Source: Phoenix dactylifera | Lineage: Eukaryota > Streptophyta > Magnoliopsida > Arecales > Arecaceae | Direction of reading: 5' to 3' | DNA length: 64,000 nt | Assembly (NCBI RefSeq): GCF_009389715.1 | Contig: NC_052399.1 | Location: 3,550,938 to 3,614,937 of the forward strand | Part shown: positions 10,072 to 35,280 of the stretch, piece after piece | How positions within the stretch are numbered: the first letter of the stretch is position 1 | How the letters are laid out: each line of letters starts with the position of its first letter | Translations under genes and position numbers: made by a program | The notes under the pieces: model-generated | What the model saw: only the letters and a program-made list of their open reading frames with translations | Database searches by the model: none | Told to the model about the DNA's origin: nothing

Positions 10072-10199
10072 GGGGGGGGGGGGGGGGGGGATCTTCTTCT
10101 ATGAATAGCAAATTCAAGTGGAGTCAATCCAACCTGCAAATTTAATTATGTTCTTATTACATGGCGAAAAAGCTACAGTTCTTTTAATTGTTTATACTG

Positions 10200-10253
<54 letters not shown>

Positions 10254-10383
10254 AGGTCTTCTTCTATGAATAGCAATTCAAGTGGAGTTAATCCAACCTG
10301 CAAATTTAATTATATTCTTATTACATGGCAAAAAAGTTACAGTTCTTTTAATTGTTTATACTGCAGTTTATCTATATATATAT

Positions 10384-10416
<33 letters not shown>

Positions 10417-12023: not shown

Positions 12024-12512
12024 ACCTAGGGCTCGTTTGCTCCGCAAAAAAAAAAAAAAAAATATGTACGGTCAACAAAAAAATAATAAAATATTTTTTA
12101 TTTGGTTGGAATTTTCAAAGAAAAAAGATGAAAAAAATTATATTTTCATGAAAATATAATTCTCATGTTTCTTAGAAAACTTACTTTTCCGTGATCGAAA
12201 ATCACTTCATTTTTAAATTTTTTTCAAAAAAGTCTTTAACATTAAAGATGCATTAAAGACCTAATTTTTATTAAAGGTATAATAAGAATTACACATAACT
12301 TTTTCAGAAAAGTAGATGGTCAACCAAATATAAGCACTTTAAAAATCTGTCACTTTCTCATTGTCAACCAAATACACCAAAAGTATTTTTTCAGGTATTC
12401 TCTTTCTATAAATTTGCTTCTCAAAAATCATATTTTTAGAAGGAAAAATGCTTCCTCTTCGACTTGGTCCGAAGACCAATGCTTTCCGCGAACCAAACGA
12501 GTCTCTAATGTT
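12024..12512. mobile_element. Tourist-like MITE (PIF/Harbinger type), copy 1
   Basis: Terminal inverted repeats AGGGCTCGTTTGCTCCGC (left) and GCGAACCAAACGAGTCTCT (right) enclose about 485 bp of AT-rich DNA with no reading frame. Ends and interior match the better-kept copy at 14328-14805. The TIRs have diverged, so this copy is older. Confidence 0.75.
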
Positions 12513-14327: not shown

Positions 14328-14805
14328 GGCTCGTTTGGTTCGCGGGAAGCATTTTTCCTCCTAGAAATATGATTTCTGGGAAACAAATTCCTAGGAAAAG
14401 GATGCCTAGGAAAGTACTTTTGGAATATTTGGTTGACCATGGAAAAATGGCAAATTTCCAAAGTGCTATGTTTGGTTGGTCATCCACTTTCCTAGGAAAG
14501 TTATGTATAATTCCTATTATGTCCTTAATAAAAATTAGGTATTTAATGTCTCTTTAATGCTTCTTTAATGCTGAAGGGACTTTTTGGAAAAAAGTAAAAA
14601 TGGAGTAATTCCTGCCTCATGGGAAAGTAACTTTCCCATGTTTCTCATGGGAAAGACTTTCCCATGAAATGTGGGAATCATATTCCTATGGAAATTCAAC
14701 TTTTCCTTCTCTCTCCTTTGAAAACTCCAACCAAACAAGAGGCATCTTATTACTTTCCCGTTGACCACACTTTCTCCCCTTCTTTTCCCGCGAACCAAAC
14801 GAGCC
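14328..14805. mobile_element. Tourist-like MITE (PIF/Harbinger type), copy 2, well preserved
   Basis: The left end GGGCTCGTTTGGTTCGCGGG and right end CCCGCGAACCAAACGAGCCC are perfect inverted repeats over 20 bp. The element is flanked by TAA on both sides, the 3-bp TWA target typical of PIF/Harbinger. About 478 bp, no reading frame; the interior carries hairpin-forming GGGAAAG/CTTTCCC words. Copies 12024-12512 and 37398-37876 share CTTTGAAAACTCCAAC-like and TTGACCACA blocks near the right end. Confidence 0.88.
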
Positions 14806-17896: not shown

Positions 17897-18420
17897 AAAG
17901 ACGCTCTCCACCTAGCTCCATAGCCTTTATAATCCAGTATCACTCATTTTCCATATGAACGAAATCTTTTGTTAACTGGGTTGCTGATATTGCCTGCCAA
18001 AATTCAGTGAACTTGCCACTTGAGAAAGTAAAATAGAAATCGTTAACATATGTTTTGAGACCGTGTAAGCGAGATCAGCTTAACATAAGTAAGTGACATG
18101 AGAACACGTCAAGATTCATTTCTTTCATGTGTGAACCATGTTTCTCTGCATCAGGTGCGCCATGTCTACCGCAGAAATAATACAAGATAAAATAGAGAGG
18201 CGACAATCTGAGATGAGCTACACGATAAATGAAAGACTGTAGAAACGAGAAATCTGATTACTATGGTGCATTAGGTGTATGGTATAATTTTTCTAGGAGT
18301 TACAGGTAAAAAGTATGTGCTCCTTGAAGAGGGCTACGACTCAACCGCTTCATACTTCATGGCCTACTCACATATAGGTTCAGATTGTATCTTTTGCATG
18401 AAAAAAAAAAGATACATTGT

Positions 18421-18848
18421 CTTTCGCGATATCAGCCATTGAATTGTACATCGGATAGATATCAAAGCATTCCACTATTTTTTTAATCTATCTGCACATA
18501 TTTTAAAGCAGCTATTCAGATACAACCGAACCCCTCATGCATACGTATAACATGAGCTCACCTTCTTTGTTTCGTGATACTAGCCATTGGATTGTACAAT
18601 GCACAGATATCAAAGCATTCTAATATTTTTTTAACCTATCTGCACATATTTTAAAGCAGCTATTCATATACAACCGAGCTCCTCACGCATACGTATACGA
18701 TGAGCTCACCTTCTTTCTTGATATCAGCCATTGTACAATGCACAAATATCGAAGCATTCCAATCTTTTTTTTTAATCTATATGTACAGATTTTAAAGCAG
18801 CTATTCAGATACAACCGAACCCCTCACACATACGTATGCCATGAGCTC
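18421..18848. repeat. Tandem array 1 of the ~147-bp sub-repeat (3 units)
   Basis: Units start near 18421, 18565 and 18714. Each contains CAGCCATT..TTGTACA, AGATATCAAAGCATTC, a T run, ATCTATCTGCACATATTTTA, AAAGCAGCTATTCAGATACA, ACCGAACCCCTCA, CATACGTATA and CATGAGCTCACCTTCTTT. A MITE-like end, GATTGTATCTTTTGCATG, precedes the first unit at about 18383. Confidence 0.85.
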
Positions 18849-19453
18849 TACTAGACCTAGCATAAGACGCTCTCCACCTGGCCCCATAGCCGCGAGAATC
18901 CAGTATCACTCATTTTCCATATGCAACGAAATCTTTTGTTGGCTGGGTTGCCGTTATTTGCCTGCCAAAATAGTGTGAACTTGCCACTTTTCGAAGAAGC
19001 TCCACACTTAAGACAAAAGCAAAATAGAAATCGACGCAGCATAACCGACTGAGATTATGAAGGAACAAAGCACCTTTTATCGTTGAGACCGTGTAAGCGA
19101 GATCAACGCAACATATATGTAAGTGTCACGGAAGCACCTCAAGATTCATTTCTTACTTGTGTGAACCATGTCTTTGCACATCAGATGCACCATGTCGGCA
19201 GCGTACTATAGAAATAATTCAAGATAAAATAGAGAGGCAACAGTCTGAGATGAGCTACACGATAAATGAAAGACCGTAGAAACGAGAAATCTGATTACTA
19301 TGGTGCATCAGGTATATGGTATAATTTTTTTAGGAGCTAGAGGCCAAAAGTATGTTCTCCTTGGAGAGGGCCACGACTCAACCGCTTCATACTTCATGGC
19401 CACTCACATATAGATTTGAATTGTATCTTTTGCATGAAAAAAAAAAGGATTCA

Positions 19454-20036
19454 CTTCCATTCGTGATATTAGCCATTGGATTGCACAATGCACAGATATC
19501 AAAGCATTCAAATATTTTTTTTATCAATCTGCATAGATTTAAAGCAGTTATTTAGATACAACCGAACCTCTCACGTATATGTATACCATGAGCTCATCTT
19601 CTTTCGTGGTATCAGCCATTGGATTGTGCAATGCATAGATATCAAAGCATTCAAATATTTTTTTTATCCATCTGCACATATTTTAAAGTAGCTATTCAGA
19701 TATAACCGAACCTCTCACGCATACATATACCATGAGCTCACCTTCTTTCTTTCGTGACATCCACCATTGAATTGTACAGTGCACAGATATCAAAGCATTC
19801 CAATATTTTTCATCAATCTGCACAGATTTTAAAGCAGTTATTCAGATATAACCGAGCCCCTCATGTATACGGCATACATATACCATAAGCTCACCCTTCT
19901 TTCGTGATATCAACCATTGACTTATACAATACACATATATCAAAGTATTTTAATATTTTTTTATCTATCTGCACAGATTTTAAAGCAGCTATCCAGATAA
20001 AACCGAGCTCCTCAGGCATACGTATACCATGAGCTC
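19454..20036. repeat. Tandem array 2 of the ~147-bp sub-repeat (4 units)
   Basis: Units start near 19454, 19601, 19745 and 19899 and share the words given for array 1. The MITE-like end ATTGTATCTTTTGCATG again precedes the first unit, at about 19421. Both arrays finish with GAGCTCTACTAGACCTA. Confidence 0.85.
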
Positions 20037-20050
20037 TACTAGACCTATCA

Positions 20051-28377: not shown

Positions 28378-28920
28378 GTGGTGCACACTCTCATCCCAAC
28401 CTATATATTTACCTGTCAAATCTATGTTGCATGGCTACAACCTCCCCTGGGTGTTCTAAAAGTAATCTTTCATGGATCTGTGTCTCATGACAGTGCAGCT
28501 GCAGGTTTTGTCATCAGAGATCACAATAGTAGATTGATATATGGCCAGGGGAAGCATTTATTTACATATCTTCCGTTTTATATGCACAATTAATAGCGGC
28601 ATGGGCTGATCTTGGGATTGATATTCTACAATATAGAGCTCAGCAAGTATGGTTAGAAGGTGATTCTGCAACTGTAATTCAGTGGTTAACTTCTCCAGCA
28701 ACATGCAGCTATGTTGATCACCCTCAAGATCTCGTCTGCTGGAAGCAAAATTTGATGGTCTTTAAGGTGACCTACATTTACTGCAAGGAAAACTAAGCAG
28801 CAGATTAGGTTGCATTTCATGCTTTGCAGAGAGCTTGCTGTTTCTCATATCGTACATGCCTCCCTCCATAGTTGATCCCCTCTATATATCAACAAAAAAA
28901 AAGAAAAAAAGAAAAAAAAA
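28378..28920 (+). mobile_element. 5'-truncated LINE, RNase H-like 3' end (copy A)
   Basis: The frame reads WLQPPLGVLKVIFHGSVSHD then AAAGFVIRDHNSRLI; after a frame break come AAWADLGIDILQYRAQQVWL, EGDSATVIQWLTSP and FHALQRACCFSYRTC. This is the plant LINE RNase H-like domain. It ends in an interrupted A-rich tail (about 28888-28920). The usual catalytic VNFDG reads VIFHG, so it is inactive. The duplicated copy is at 32401-32890. Confidence 0.8.
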
Positions 28921-28924
28921 GCTC

Positions 28925-29087
28925 GGGTTGTGTCATTTGTGCAAAAGTGATCGATCTCTTTTCGCGACGTCAACCATTAATCGATCTTTTATCCATCCAT
29001 CTATATAGATCTCAAAGTAGTGATCTAACAGTCGTTGACCGTTGAAGGATAGTGAATCCTTCTTTGGCGCGAAAGAGACAACACCCC
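28925..29087. mobile_element. Small MITE of the GGGTTGTATCTTT family (copy A; duplicated near 32894-33048)
   Basis: Ends GGGTTGTGTCATTTGTGC and GGCGCGAAAGAGACAACACC form a diverged inverted repeat. The interior has TTTCGCGACGTCAACCATTA and ATAGATCTCAAAGTAGTGAT, the family words also seen in the 18-20 kb arrays. It directly follows the LINE A-tail. Confidence 0.65.
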
Positions 29088-29225
29088 AAAAAAGACAACT
29101 CGTGGTTCAACCTCATCTCGTAGGTCGTCCTGTTCCCTTAGTTACGTTAATCCCCTTACGGCACTTGGCGTGCGACTTAGCTTCACCCCTTAGAAGAAAC
29201 ATCAACAAATCAATGATATGGATAT

Positions 29226-29801
29226 TGTTGCGGGGTTTTTTGGGCCTCGATAATAGCACAGTCCCAACCGAGCTGAGCAGAGAAAGCAACTGCGTCCTAC
29301 TCTGGGGTGCCCGATACTGGGTCGGGAGCCACCCCTCACGGTTTTGTCCCGCAAAAGAACCCTCGTGAGGAAAGGCTTTTAATCTCCCCATTATAAGATA
29401 CAGACCTTTTCGCTAAACGGTCAGTACGGGACTAAATTCGAGCCCTCCCACAACACAGCCCTCTCAGCGGGAAGGTCCTGGGCCGGACATAAACCGGCGT
29501 AGCCCCCAGGCTTGAGAGGGGGGTGGGGGAGGGTACCCCTATCTGGCGCGCCATCTGTTGCGGGATTTTTTGGGCTTCAGCAACAACACAGTCCCAACCG
29601 AGCCGAGCAGAGAAAGCGACTGCGTCCCCCACGAGGTATTGTCCGCTCTGGAGCGCCCGATACTGGGTCGAGAGCTACTCCTCATGGTTTTGTCCCGCAA
29701 AAAGGCCCTCGTGAAGAAAGGTTTTTAACCTCTCCATTATAAGGTACAGATCTTTCCGCTGAACGGTCGGTATGGGACTAAATTCGGGCCCTCCCACAAC
29801 A
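29226..29801 (-). mobile_element. TRIM-type miniature LTR retrotransposon (copy A)
   Basis: Two direct repeats, 29226-29455 and 29556-29801, both begin TGTTGCGGG and end CCCTCCCACAACA, giving TG..CA termini. Only 100 bp lie between. On the minus strand TGGCGCGCCAGATAGGGG follows the repeat after 2 nt and is the likely primer-binding site. Flanks GATAT/TATAT are a 5-bp target duplication with one mismatch. The right repeat carries an extra ~16 bp around 29627-29645. No coding capacity. Both repeats contain GTCCCAACCGAGC and CCGATACTGGGTCG. Confidence 0.8.
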
Positions 29802-30338
29802 TATATTAACACGAGAATTCAAAGAGATACTAGTTTAAATTATTGTCGCTATTATTGTCAACAAAAAACAACGATTCAAACCTTGATTGGGTTTTCAATC
29901 TACAAATATAAAAAAATAATTCTTGCATCTATTCTCATACTCAAAAAAATCTTTGCATGCAATCTATATATTTAAATATGACAATACTATGCGCACCATT
30001 GAATTCAGGGGTTTCAAAAATATAAATTTTCTTGGATTGAGCTGACTATGGCAAGATCACACAAGATATTCTATGGCCATGGCTTAAATCATTCTTAATT
30101 TTTTTTAATAATTTTTAAGAAAAAGAAATGGTTATTCTCCACCAAGAGAAAAGATGGGATTTGAACAAATGTTTTTGGGTATCATATTCGCCGCTAGTGA
30201 CTTTTTTCCCTTAAACTATTTGGACCAATAACTATTTTTCAAACCTAAACTATACTTATCAGCCTGAAAAACAGATCGAATTAGACCTAATTATATTGTG
30301 CATTCCTAGTTGCAAACATGTTATTCTTACTAAGAATC
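29802..30338. other. Duplicated non-coding DNA (copy A; same as 33763-34304)
   Basis: AT-rich sequence between the TRIM and the subtilase fragment. No reading frame or repeat was recognised beyond the tandem duplication itself. Confidence 0.5.
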
Positions 30339-30454
30339 TCATATCATGTGTTCCAATAATGCAGGATTACAAATATCCAAGAGAAAGTGGTGTAACCTTG
30401 GAATGGCAGGTTCATGACGATCATTGCAGCTCCGCCGGCGGCATAGACTACTAC
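30339..30454 (-). pseudogene. Subtilase fragment in copy A, split by the TIR element (continues at 32341-32400)
   Basis: The minus strand gives VVVYAAGGAAMIVMNLPFQG from 30454 down. The preceding residues KVVLCWSGAIKDTEKGEV are at 32400-32341, on the other side of the 1.9-kb element. It duplicates the 3' end of the subtilase pseudogene in copy B. Confidence 0.8.
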
Positions 30455-30639
30455 GGCCCTGTTTGGGAGAGCTGTGGGCAGTAGAGCAGTTGGAAGTAGA
30501 GCTGTTGGAAGTAGAGCTGTCTGAAGTAGAGCTGTTATAAAAAGCTGTTTGCTGTTTGGTAATTACATTTGTAAAGTGCTGTGGCACTTTAACATATGTT
30601 TGGTAAACAAACTGAGAAAGTACTTATGTATGACAAAAT

Positions 30640-31380
30640 TACCATAAAGGACATTGCATAGTATTATACAACATAACATAATAAAACATAACATATATTA
30701 ATACATAAATATACGATATAGTATAATATTATTGTAATATAAATAATATTATTATAATATAGCATAATAGTAATATAATTATTAGAGTAAATTAATTTTT
30801 GATAATATAACATAATATTAAATTATTTAACATAACATATTAATGTATTATGATATAATGTAATATATATTATATTTATAGTATAATACAATAATAAAGG
30901 TATAAAATATTATAATTATTAGTATAAATTAATTTCTCATAATATAACATAATATTAAATTATTTGAAATAACATTTAATGTATTATGATGTAATGTAAT
31001 ATAATATAATATTTATAGTATAATACAATAATAAAGGTATAAAATATTATAATTATTAGTAAAAATTAATTTTTCATAATATAACATAATATTAAATTAT
31101 TTAAAAAAACATATTAATGTATTATGATATAACGTATTATGATATTATATTTATAGTATAATACAATAATAAAGATATAAAATATTATAATTATTAGTAT
31201 AAATTAATTTTTCATAATATAACATAATATTAAATTATTTAAAATAACATATTAATGTATTATGATGTAATGTTATGTAATATAATATTTATAGTATAAT
31301 ACATTAATAAAGGTATAAAATTATTTAAAATAACATAATATTAAATTATTTAAAATAATAAAGGTATAATTTAATATTTT
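30640..31380. repeat. AT-rich tandem repeat inside the TIR element
   Basis: Units of roughly 115-130 bp repeat the words AATATAACATAATATTAAAT, TTAATGTATTATGATGTAAT, TTTATAGTATAATACAATAA and AAAGGTATAAAATATTATAA four to five times. Confidence 0.8.
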
Positions 31381-31574
31381 TATTTATTTATTTATTTATT
31401 TATTTGTTCATTTATATACATATTTATTTATTTATTTATTTTCTTTATTTTCTTTTTCTTTCCTTTTTTTTCTTCCCTTTTTTTCTTTCCTTTTTCTTCT
31501 TTTTCTTTCCTTTTCTTTTTTCTTCTCTTCTTCTCCTTCCTTCCTCTCTTTCCTTCTTCTCCTTTCTTCTCCCG

Positions 31575-32012
31575 CAAGGCCGGTGGCGCCGGAAGGGGGC
31601 CGGGCCGCAGCGGCTGCGGGAGGAGGCCCGGGAGGGGGCCGGGACGGCGGGCCCCGGCGACCGCGGGGGAGGGGGGGCTCGGGAGGGGGCCGGGACGGCG
31701 GGCCGCGACGACTGCGGGGGGAGGGGGGCTCGGGAGGGGGCCGGGACGGCAGGCCGCGGGGGGAGGGGGGCTCGGGAGGGGGCCGGGACGGCGGGCCGCG
31801 ACGACCGCGGGGGGAGGGGGGGCTCGGGAGGGGGCCGGGACGGCGGGCCGCGGGGGGAGGGGGGCTCGGGAGGGGGCCGGGACGGCGGGCCTCGGCGACC
31901 GCGAGGGAGGGGGGGCTCGGGAGGGGGCCAGGACGGCGGGCCGCGGGGGGAGGGGGTGCTCGGGAGGGGGCCGGGACGGCGGGCCTCGGCGACCGTGAGG
32001 GAGGGGGGGCAT
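31575..32012. repeat. GC-rich G-tract minisatellite inside the TIR element
   Basis: Repeats of GGGGGGCTCGGGAGGGGGCC plus GGGACGGCGGGCC(G/T)CG with CGACCGCGGGG variants, in units of about 45-60 bp, about eight units. One strand carries nearly all the G tracts. Composition is close to pure G+C, directly after a T/C-rich stretch (31380-31570). Long open frames here arise from the repeat and are not genes. Confidence 0.85.
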
Positions 32013-32400
32013 TGAGGAGAAGGAGATAGAGAGGGGGAGAGAGAGAGAGAGAGGGAGGATGGTGAGAGAGGAAGAGACGGTGGGATGGGGATTTTTGGGA
32101 GGAAAAATGAACTTTTAAATGGGGGTATTTTGGTCAAAAATACAGCTTCCCGACAAAGCTGAAAACAGCGTTTTCGGAAAGCTCCAAAATGGAGCTTCTG
32201 CCAAAAAGTTGTTTTCAGCTTCCCGCAAAAGCTGAAACAGCTTTTCCAAAATTTTACCAAACACCCTTTTTTACCTAAAAGTACTTTTGGAGGGCCAGAA
32301 AGTGCTTTTTGGCCCTCCAAAAGCTCCCCCAAACAGGGCCTACCTCTCCTTTTTCGGTATCCTTTATTGCACCGCTCCAGCATAACACCACCTTTCCATA

Positions 32401-32890
32401 TACAACCTCCCCTGGGTGTTCTAAAAGTAATCTTTCATGGATCTGTGTCTCATGACAGTGCAGCTGCAGGTTTTGTCATCAGAGATCACAATAGTAGATT
32501 GATATATGGCCAGGGGAAGCATTTATTTACATATCTTCCGTTTTATATGCACAATTAATAGCGGCACGGGCTGATCTTGGGATTGATATTCTACAATATA
32601 GAGCTCAGCAAGTATGGTTAGAAGGTGATTCTGCAACTGTAATTCAGTGGTTAACTTCTCCAGCAACATGCAGCTATGTTGATCACCCTCAAGATCTCGT
32701 CTGCTGGAAGCAAAATTTGATGGTCTTTAAGGTGACCTACATTTACTGCAAGGAAAACTAAGCAGCAGATTAGGTTGCATTTCATACTTTGCAGAGAGCT
32801 TGCTGTTTCTCATATCGTACATGCCTCCCTCCATAGTTGATCCCCTCTATATATCAACAAAAAAAAAGAAAAAAAGAAAAAAAAAAAAGC
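32401..32890 (+). mobile_element. 5'-truncated LINE, RNase H-like 3' end (copy B)
   Basis: Duplicate of the copy at 28436-28920, with a few substitutions and a slightly longer A-rich tail. It starts exactly at the tandem-duplication junction. Confidence 0.8.
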
Positions 32891-33186
32891 TCGGGTTGTG
32901 TCATTTGTGCAAAAGTGATCGATCTCTTTTCGCGACGTCAACCATTAATCGATCTTTTATCCATCCATCTATATAGATCTCAAAGTAGTGATCTAACAGT
33001 CGTTGACCGTTAGTGAATCCTTCTTTGGCGTGAAAGAGACAACACCCCAAAAAAGACAACTCGTGGTTCAACCTCATCTCGTAGGTCGTCCTGTTCCCTT
33101 AGTTACGTTAATCCCCTTACGGCACTTGGCGTGCGACTTAGCTTCACCCCTTAGAAGAAACATCAACAAATCAATGATATGGATAT

Positions 33187-33762
33187 TGTTGCGGGGTTTT
33201 TTGGGCCTCGATAATAGCACAGTCCCAACCGAGCCGAGCAGAGAAAGCAACTACGTCCTACTCTGGGGTGCCCGATACTGGGTCGGGAGCCACCCCTCAC
33301 GGTTTTGTTCCGCAAAAGAACCCTCGTGAGGAAAGGCTTTTAATCTCCCCATTATAAGGTACAGACCTTTTCGCTAAACGGTCAGTACGGGACTAAATTC
33401 GAGCCCTCCCACAACACAGCCCTCTCAGCGGGAAGGTCCTGGGACGGACATAAACCGGCGTAGCCCCCAGGCTTGAGAGGGGGGTGGGGGAGGGTACCCC
33501 TATCTGGCGCGCCATCTGTTGCGGGATTTTTTGGGCTTCAGCAACAACACAGTCCCAACCGAGCCGAGCAGAGAAAGCGACTGCGTCCCCTACGAGGTAT
33601 TGTCCGCTCTGGAGCGCCCGATACTGGGTCGAGAGCCACTCCTCATGGTTTTGTCCCGCAAAAGGGCCCTCGTGAAGAAAGGTTTTTAACCTCTCCATTA
33701 TAAGGTACAGATCTTTCCGCTGAACGGTCGGTATGGGACTAAATTCGGGCCCTCCCACAACA
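33187..33762 (-). mobile_element. TRIM-type miniature LTR retrotransposon (copy B)
   Basis: Nearly identical duplicate of the element at 29226-29801, carried along by the tandem duplication rather than inserted separately: flanks and target duplication are the same. Confidence 0.8.
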
Positions 33763-34304
33763 TATATTAACACGAGAATTCAAAGAGATACTAGTTTAAA
33801 TTATTGTCGCTATTATTGTCAACAAAAAACAACGATTCAAACCTTGATTGGGTTTTCAATCTACAAATATAAAAAAATAATTCTTGCATCTATTCTCATA
33901 CTCAAAAAAATCTTTGCATGCAATCTATATATTTAAATATGACAATACTATGCGCACCATTGAATTCAGGGGTTTCAAAAATATAAATTTTCTTGGATTG
34001 AGCTGACTTTGGCAAGATCACACAAGACATTCTATGGCCATGGCTTAAATCATTCTTAATATTTTTTAATAATTTTTAAGAAAAAGAAATGGTTATTCTC
34101 CACCAAGAGAAAAGATGGGATTTGAACAAATGTTTTTGGGTATCATATTCGCCGCTAGTGACTTTTTTCCCTTAAACTATTTGGACCAATAACTATTTTT
34201 CAAACCTAAACTATACTTATCAGCCTGAAAAACAGATCGAATTAGACCTAATTATATTGTGCATTCCTAGTTGCAAACATGTTATTCTTACTAAGAATCT
34301 CATA

Positions 34305-35280
34305 TCATGTGTTCCAATAATGCAGGATTACAAATATCCAAGAGAAAGTGGTGTAACCTTGGAATGGCAGGTTCATGACGATCATTGCAGCTCCGCCGGC
34401 GGCATAGACTACTACCTCTCCTTTTTCGGTATCCTTTATTGCACCGCTCCAGCATAACACCACCTTTCCATAAACGTCGATATAATCCAACGAGCCTTTC
34501 AGACAGTAGGAGGCATTTAGATCCCCATACATGCCGGGGTACACCAGGGGCAACAAGGTGGTGGAATCGAAAGAGCTGGGCCGGAAGGCGGATTCTCCCT
34601 CGAATTCCATCCCATTTCCAAGCTCCACCATCGCTCGAATTCTTCTATCCGTCGAGCTCGCGCCTACCGCGCGGGAACCCAAGGGGCGTCATGGTTGACG
34701 GTATTGATCTCCGGGCCATCGTTGCCGGCAGCCGCACAAGGGAAGATCGATCCCCTTCTCAACAGCAGCCAGCGAGCCGATGGCGACGGGGTCCTGATAG
34801 AATGTGGCATTGGGGGCACCATTGATGGACATCGAGAGCACATCGACTCCGTCCTTGATGGCTTGATCTATAGCGGCATATATGTCGCTGCCGGAGCAAC
34901 CGTCGTGGAAGCACACCTTGTAGATGGCCAGGTGAGCTTTCGGAGCCATTCCGGAGGCGACGCCCTTCGCCATTCCGAGGACCTCAGCATCGTCGACGAA
35001 GCGTCCCGCGGCCGTGCTGGCCACGTGAGTGCCATGTCCATCATCGTCGGTCGCCGGGGCTCTCGTCCCATTTTGGAACCCCATTGCACCGATGATCTTG
35101 TTGTTGCAAGCGAATCCGCCGGACCGGCACCGTCCCCTCCTTATAGGTTCGGACTTGGCCAGGACCGACTCCTTGGTCGTCGGCTATGCGCAGAATTTGG
35201 CCGTGACTGCTAACAATATCGGGGTTGGGCGATAATAAGAGAAAGGCTAAGAAGAAGTGCATGAGGTATTGGTCCTCCAT
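34305..35280 (-). pseudogene. Subtilisin-like serine protease (SBT family) pseudogene
   Basis: On the minus strand a hydrophobic N-terminal start (MEDQYLMHFFLAFLLL) runs, after a frame change, into NNKIIGAMGFQNGTRAPATD and DDGHGTHVASTAAG, which holds the catalytic His. Then follow AHLAIYKVCF, IDQAIKDGVDVLSMSI, AAGNDGPEINTVNHDAPWV, VGASSTDRRI and VLCWSGAIKDTEKGEVV. The inhibitor I9 propeptide and the catalytic Asp region are missing between the N-terminus and the His block. At least two frameshifts occur (near 34745 and 34660). Homology stops after FQGYTTFS, before the catalytic Ser region. A plant subtilase is about 750 aa; this is under half. It cannot encode an active protease. The tandem duplication breaks inside it. 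Confidence 0.85.

Follow-up and report, generated by a model that had tools for sequence, protein, structure and literature searches.

The rice Tourist MITE mPing, with its relatives Ping and Pong, and PePIF1 of the orchid Phalaenopsis equestris are the closest described systems to the transposable element analysed here. mPing (430 bp) is non-coding, duplicates 3 bp on insertion with a preference for TWA and is moved by a two-protein helper; when flanked by TCA, it placed 45 of 46 insertions in TTA or TAA (PMC4561436). According to the same source, PIF/Harbinger elements excise precisely in general. In yeast, mPing flanked by TAC on both sides gave almost no revertants in a strain with homology-only repair, and of 16 TAC/TAC excision sites 10 carried indels, with none reported at the remaining 6 (PMC4561436). 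Lower excision of larger elements in yeast has also been reported (PMC10288884). PePIF1, a PIF-like element of the P lineage, has a 19-bp TIR (GGGYCYGTTTGGGGCAGCT), a TTA duplication, a length of 5,053 bp, a head-to-tail arrangement of ORF1 and transposase, and many non-coding, MITE-like derivatives, mostly of 200-300 bp; OsPIF2, listed in the same source with an ATA duplication, provides a precedent for a non-TWA target (PMC6327408). Among the titles listed in keyword searches of literature from which most subscription journals are missing, none concerned palm PIF/Harbinger elements.

An element of 1,886 bp was located at 30455..32340 (plus strand) of the window, the whole 64,000-nucleotide stretch of Phoenix dactylifera DNA under analysis (C8:3550938-3614937; the assembly totals 773 Mb in 2,391 contigs). 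It is a non-coding, non-autonomous PIF/Harbinger element and, as such, an ordinary kind of plant element; its length and composition are unusual, as are its TAC target, matched by an empty twin, and the proportion of non-TWA duplications in its family. Both ends correspond to GGCCCTGTTTGGG: the element starts with GGCCCTGTTTGGGAGAGC and finishes with GCTCCCCCAAACAGGGCC, and 18 of the first 19 bases, read by eye, agree between the ends. The 24-nt TIRs (30455..30478, plus strand, and 32317..32340, minus strand) are 88% complementary and are directly flanked by TAC at 30452..30454 and 32341..32343. The 12-bp end core was unremarkable in the window (6 matches with at most 2 mismatches, against 3.41 expected). 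GGCCCTGTTTGG did not occur in the literature searched, in which most subscription journals are missing.

A coding relative of 5,766 bp was found at C11:1954211-1959976, thus providing the full-length element with a transposase for which the first-pass annotation had proposed a search. Its left end is GGCCCTGTTTGGAGG, its ends match those of the window element and it is flanked on both sides by TAA. The two elements share their outer parts, namely nucleotides 1-928 of the window element (30455..31382, plus strand, 93% identity), in which a 138-bp A+T-rich unit is repeated in tandem four times (30774-31321), and the last 228 nucleotides (32113..32340, plus strand, 90% identity). Between these parts no long match was found: where the C11 relative has genes, the window element has a pyrimidine-rich tract (31390..31575, plus strand) that lacks a match to the relative, and a G+C-rich minisatellite (31625..32010, plus strand) with reported periods of 42, 51, 94 and 187. 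As judged from sequence, the window element may have been derived from a C11-like element through loss of the coding part.

On its minus strand, the C11 relative carries a Myb/SANT frame of 126 aa (PF12776, E 1.6e-23, in locus L079), followed by a 212-aa frame that matched nothing in Pfam and by a transposase in two exons (DDE_Tnp_4, PF13359, E 3.4e-09 and 5.2e-11). These exons are separated by a GT-AG intron holding three in-frame stops, although the genome-wide PF13359 search, which yielded at least 128 matches with 150 of 160 candidates scored, and of which one lies inside the C11 copy, prints an open 485-aa frame at this position. The motifs AIDGTHI, HDTRI and IERTFG appear to represent the DDE residues, as read from the frame itself rather than from an alignment to a reference. 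The last transposase exon recurs on C266 and C659 with 0 and 1 changes in 150 residues; in these two copies the left end and the transposase exons were read, and the Myb/SANT partner is known from the C11 copy, the only coding one of which both ends were read. Genome-wide, at least 19 places match positions 1-69 of the PF13359 profile in stop-free frames 288-289 or 425-486 codons long, eight of them with an identical score of 37.6 bits. These places suggest recent amplification of a coding family, whose members may all belong to that of the window element.

That other elements with these ends exist, a further point that the first-pass annotation had wished to see checked, was evident from 955 exact genome-wide matches to a 27-bp end pattern, against 0 for the reversed control. 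A search with the whole element gave at least 249 matches, with the best 40 of 3,850 first-look candidates scored. Thirty-nine further copies were retrieved and their flanks read, and among the resulting 40 loci (window included) 27 had matching duplications, 4 had none and 9 lacked a pair of ends. For the final table, the flanks of 30 loci were entered by hand, of which one, L015, was mismatched (GTA/TTA), leaving 29. Left out were L031 and L047 (flanks identical to those of L030 and L046), L017 (TTA, nested copies), L012, L036 and L038 (end broken or nested) and L014, L022, L024 and L025 (one end read); L026, L033, L035, L042 and the C11 copy (L021 with L079) were added. In this sample, selected for likeness to the window element rather than drawn at random, the duplication was TTA at 14 loci, TAA at 9, TAT at 2, and TAC, TGA, ATA and TTG at 1 each, so that 23 of 29 were TTA or TAA and 6 of 29 were not TWA. 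TAC was seen in the window copy only. The duplication was preceded by C at 20 of the 29 loci and followed by G at 20 of 29; at the window site, the TAC is flanked by C on either side. The target consensus of maize PIF, CWCTTAGWG, resembles these sites.

Because 23 of 29 duplications are TTA or TAA and the 5.8-kb relative encodes both a transposase and a Myb partner, the superfamily, left open in the first-pass annotation on account of the TAC, is taken on sequence grounds to be PIF/Harbinger. The 3-bp duplication, typically TWA in this superfamily, is of that form at most loci of the family, the window TAC being an exception; a DDE_Tnp_4 relative with the same ends and a second protein with a Myb/SANT domain are both present. 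Other superfamilies were rejected on account of the ends, the duplications and the transposase. CACTA elements, for instance, start with CACTA or CACTG, and the window element has GGCCC at its ends. Membership in CACTA, or in a different group that also duplicates 3 bp, such as NuwaII (PHIS superfamily), is highly improbable. The non-TWA target of the window copy would allow such an assignment, and the C and G found beside the duplication recall the NuwaII target, C|TNA|G (PMC4482050); but of the duplications that are not TWA just one (TGA) fits TNA, and the two encoded proteins fit PIF/Harbinger. The short TIRs are of the GG..TGTTTGG kind seen in the TIR table of PMC6327408. Nor is the element a Tourist-type MITE: MITEs are typically 50-800 bp long (PMC12550479), and at 1,886 bp it had, among the best 40 candidates scored, five members with the whole structure, itself included, although the wider family has 955 end-pattern matches.

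Among the described elements, the TIR of PePIF1 agrees with the common TIR of the palm family at 17 of 19 positions and with the left end of the window element at 16 of 19, a likeness of DNA ends that extends to the TTA duplication, the head-to-tail layout and the many non-coding derivatives. Unlike the short PePIF1 derivatives, the window element spans 1.9 kb and contains an A+T-rich array and a G+C-rich minisatellite. With mPing it shares a 3-bp duplication and, as a family, the TWA preference; mobilization by a two-protein helper would be a further likeness. Since 6 of 29 family duplications are not TWA, the target preference of the palm transposase looks looser than that of mPing.

The insertion lies in the first of two tandem copies of about 2.07 kb. 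Copy A, occupied, spans 28436..32400, and copy B, empty, spans 32401..34472. The counterpart of the insertion site in copy B, GACTACTACCTCTCC at 34407..34421, was the sole such place in the window (at most 1 mismatch; 100 shuffles gave an expectation of 0.00). The target is the second TAC in it (34413-34415), present there singly and without a footprint. Extra bases, as an excision scar in copy B would have left, were absent. The exact ends, the TAC duplication and the clean empty site read in the first-pass annotation were thereby all confirmed. Since occupied and empty sites stand side by side, the odd target is unlikely to result from a later mutation; it departs from TWA, and it appears to have been TAC at the time of insertion, which counts against the explanation preferred below.

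The right end of copy B leads into a minus-strand, subtilase-like gene, of which a PA-domain frame (34308..34688, PF02225, E 5.6e-06) and a Peptidase_S8 frame, presumably of the same gene (34692..35183, PF00082, E 9.6e-16), were recognized. On this strand, the target is an in-frame valine codon (GTA) of the PA exon, in the context KGEVVVYA. Because copy A has only a truncated piece of that exon, the insertion there was probably harmless. At their left ends, the tandem copies also contain RNase-H-like frames (28436-28796 and 32401-32761), probably a retroelement remnant; the joined frame of copy B barely exceeded the Pfam RVT_3 cut-off (21.9 versus 21.6 bits, E 0.00018).

Copies A and B differ by 14 substitutions in 2,069 aligned bases (0.68%) and by two indels, of 3 and 7 bases; the alignment lists 19 mismatches, of which five precede 28436, outside the repeat, and were left out of the count. 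Their junction (32400/32401) is a blunt CCATA|TACAACC join, read by eye, without microhomology. These data are most likely explained by a tandem duplication that was followed by insertion into copy A, with copy B never occupied and a C11-type element as helper of a PIF/Harbinger element. A segment including part of the PA-domain exon would have been duplicated by a blunt join, after which the proteins of the coding relative would have placed the element in copy A at the atypical TAC, duplicating it. The outer parts of about 928 and 228 bp, retained from an element of about 5.8 kb, would carry the sites that both proteins bind and cut, and copy B would represent a never-occupied site. The resulting TAC duplications may now make the window element hard to excise.

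The first-pass annotation had stated that the empty site shows the insertion to have followed the duplication. This order is probable, but the wording was too strong: because excision by PIF/Harbinger elements is generally precise, a check for footprints alone cannot distinguish an empty site from an excision site, and neither the capture of an allele nor an assembly error had been considered. If the element predated the duplication and was then lost from copy B, a clean site would be expected after precise excision, as is general in PIF/Harbinger and Tourist elements, and 6 of the 16 TAC/TAC excision sites in yeast were reported without an indel (PMC4561436). Such a history requires two events, however, and would be unlikely if the transposase acts here like that of mPing, since TAC/TAC nearly abolished mPing excision and left indels at 10 of 16 sites (PMC4561436), against a clean site in copy B; the lower excision of larger elements (PMC10288884) also counts against it. 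We consider this sequence of events very unlikely.

The divergence between the copies bears on two other readings, as a difference of 0.68% could, in our judgement, be allelic. An unequal exchange might have joined an occupied and an empty allele at the duplication, in which case the insertion may predate it. The assembly does contain haplotig-like pairs (L030/L031 and L046/L047, each with flanks and duplication in common), but a blunt junction without microhomology is no indication of recombination between extended homologous sequences, and such a captured polymorphism is unlikely. The same pairs, and the number of contigs in the assembly, would also be compatible with an artefact in which two haplotypes were placed end to end. 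That is quite unlikely, as the junction is seamless, joins two different flanks bluntly and lies in a window without N; even if the tandem duplication were an artefact, the insertion would be real. Duplication followed by insertion into copy A is therefore the order preferred here.

If a TAC duplication impedes excision, a non-TWA landing could act as a one-way trap, in which the copied TAC blocks the next excision and trapped copies pile up. Of 29 standing copies 6 have non-TWA duplications, as opposed to 1 among 46 new mPing insertions (PMC4561436; Fisher p = 0.012); the figures are 5 of 28 versus 1 of 46 after removal of the window copy, which had been chosen for its TAC (p = 0.026), a comparison that mixes elements and species. 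A looser target preference of the transposase explains this excess equally well, and the trap is put forward as a tentative and rather doubtful reading. The window nevertheless offers a natural occupied/empty pair for TAC/TAC, the duplication that disabled mPing excision in yeast (PMC4561436), with both states of a PIF/Harbinger insertion at TAC side by side. As the genome also contains a coding relative with a Myb/SANT frame and open transposase exons, whether the departure of an element depends on its target becomes testable outside rice elements in yeast.

The whole structure of the window element was found in four more copies (L009-L012) among the best 40 candidates scored. L009, L010, L011 and the window copy show pairwise identities of 98.2-99.1%, and L012 is 95.2-95.7% identical to them. 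The duplications of the first three are TAA, TAA and TAT, and the right end of L012 is broken. Changes private to the window copy numbered 7 in 1,854 aligned bases, some of them in poorly aligning repeats, and 3 in 1,265 alignable bases outside the minisatellite (0.24%, interval 0.05-0.69%), which roughly supports the recent movement claimed in the first-pass annotation, to no more than that precision. Divergence of the tandem copies corresponds to 0.34% per branch (half of 0.68%). An insertion as old as the duplication or younger fits these values, whose intervals overlap widely; dating by private changes lacks the power to tell which of the two events came first.

Much of the middle of the element is, among the fetched loci, common only to this subfamily and L023, L037 and L038, with short matches in L017, L027, L030, L031, L043 and L048. 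The source of the minisatellite was not found among these loci. Its length varies greatly among the window copy and L009-L012, which are otherwise 95-99% alike, making it a candidate marker. Other repeats in the window include tandem and dispersed ones at 18055-20047, with 82-84% similarity and periods of 148 and 297 bp, a 164-bp unit that occurs twice in tandem at 10092-10414 (about 95% alike) and a 216-bp inverted repeat at 12240-12455 and 14345-14559 (80.6% identical, 1.9 kb apart), which is possibly another element.
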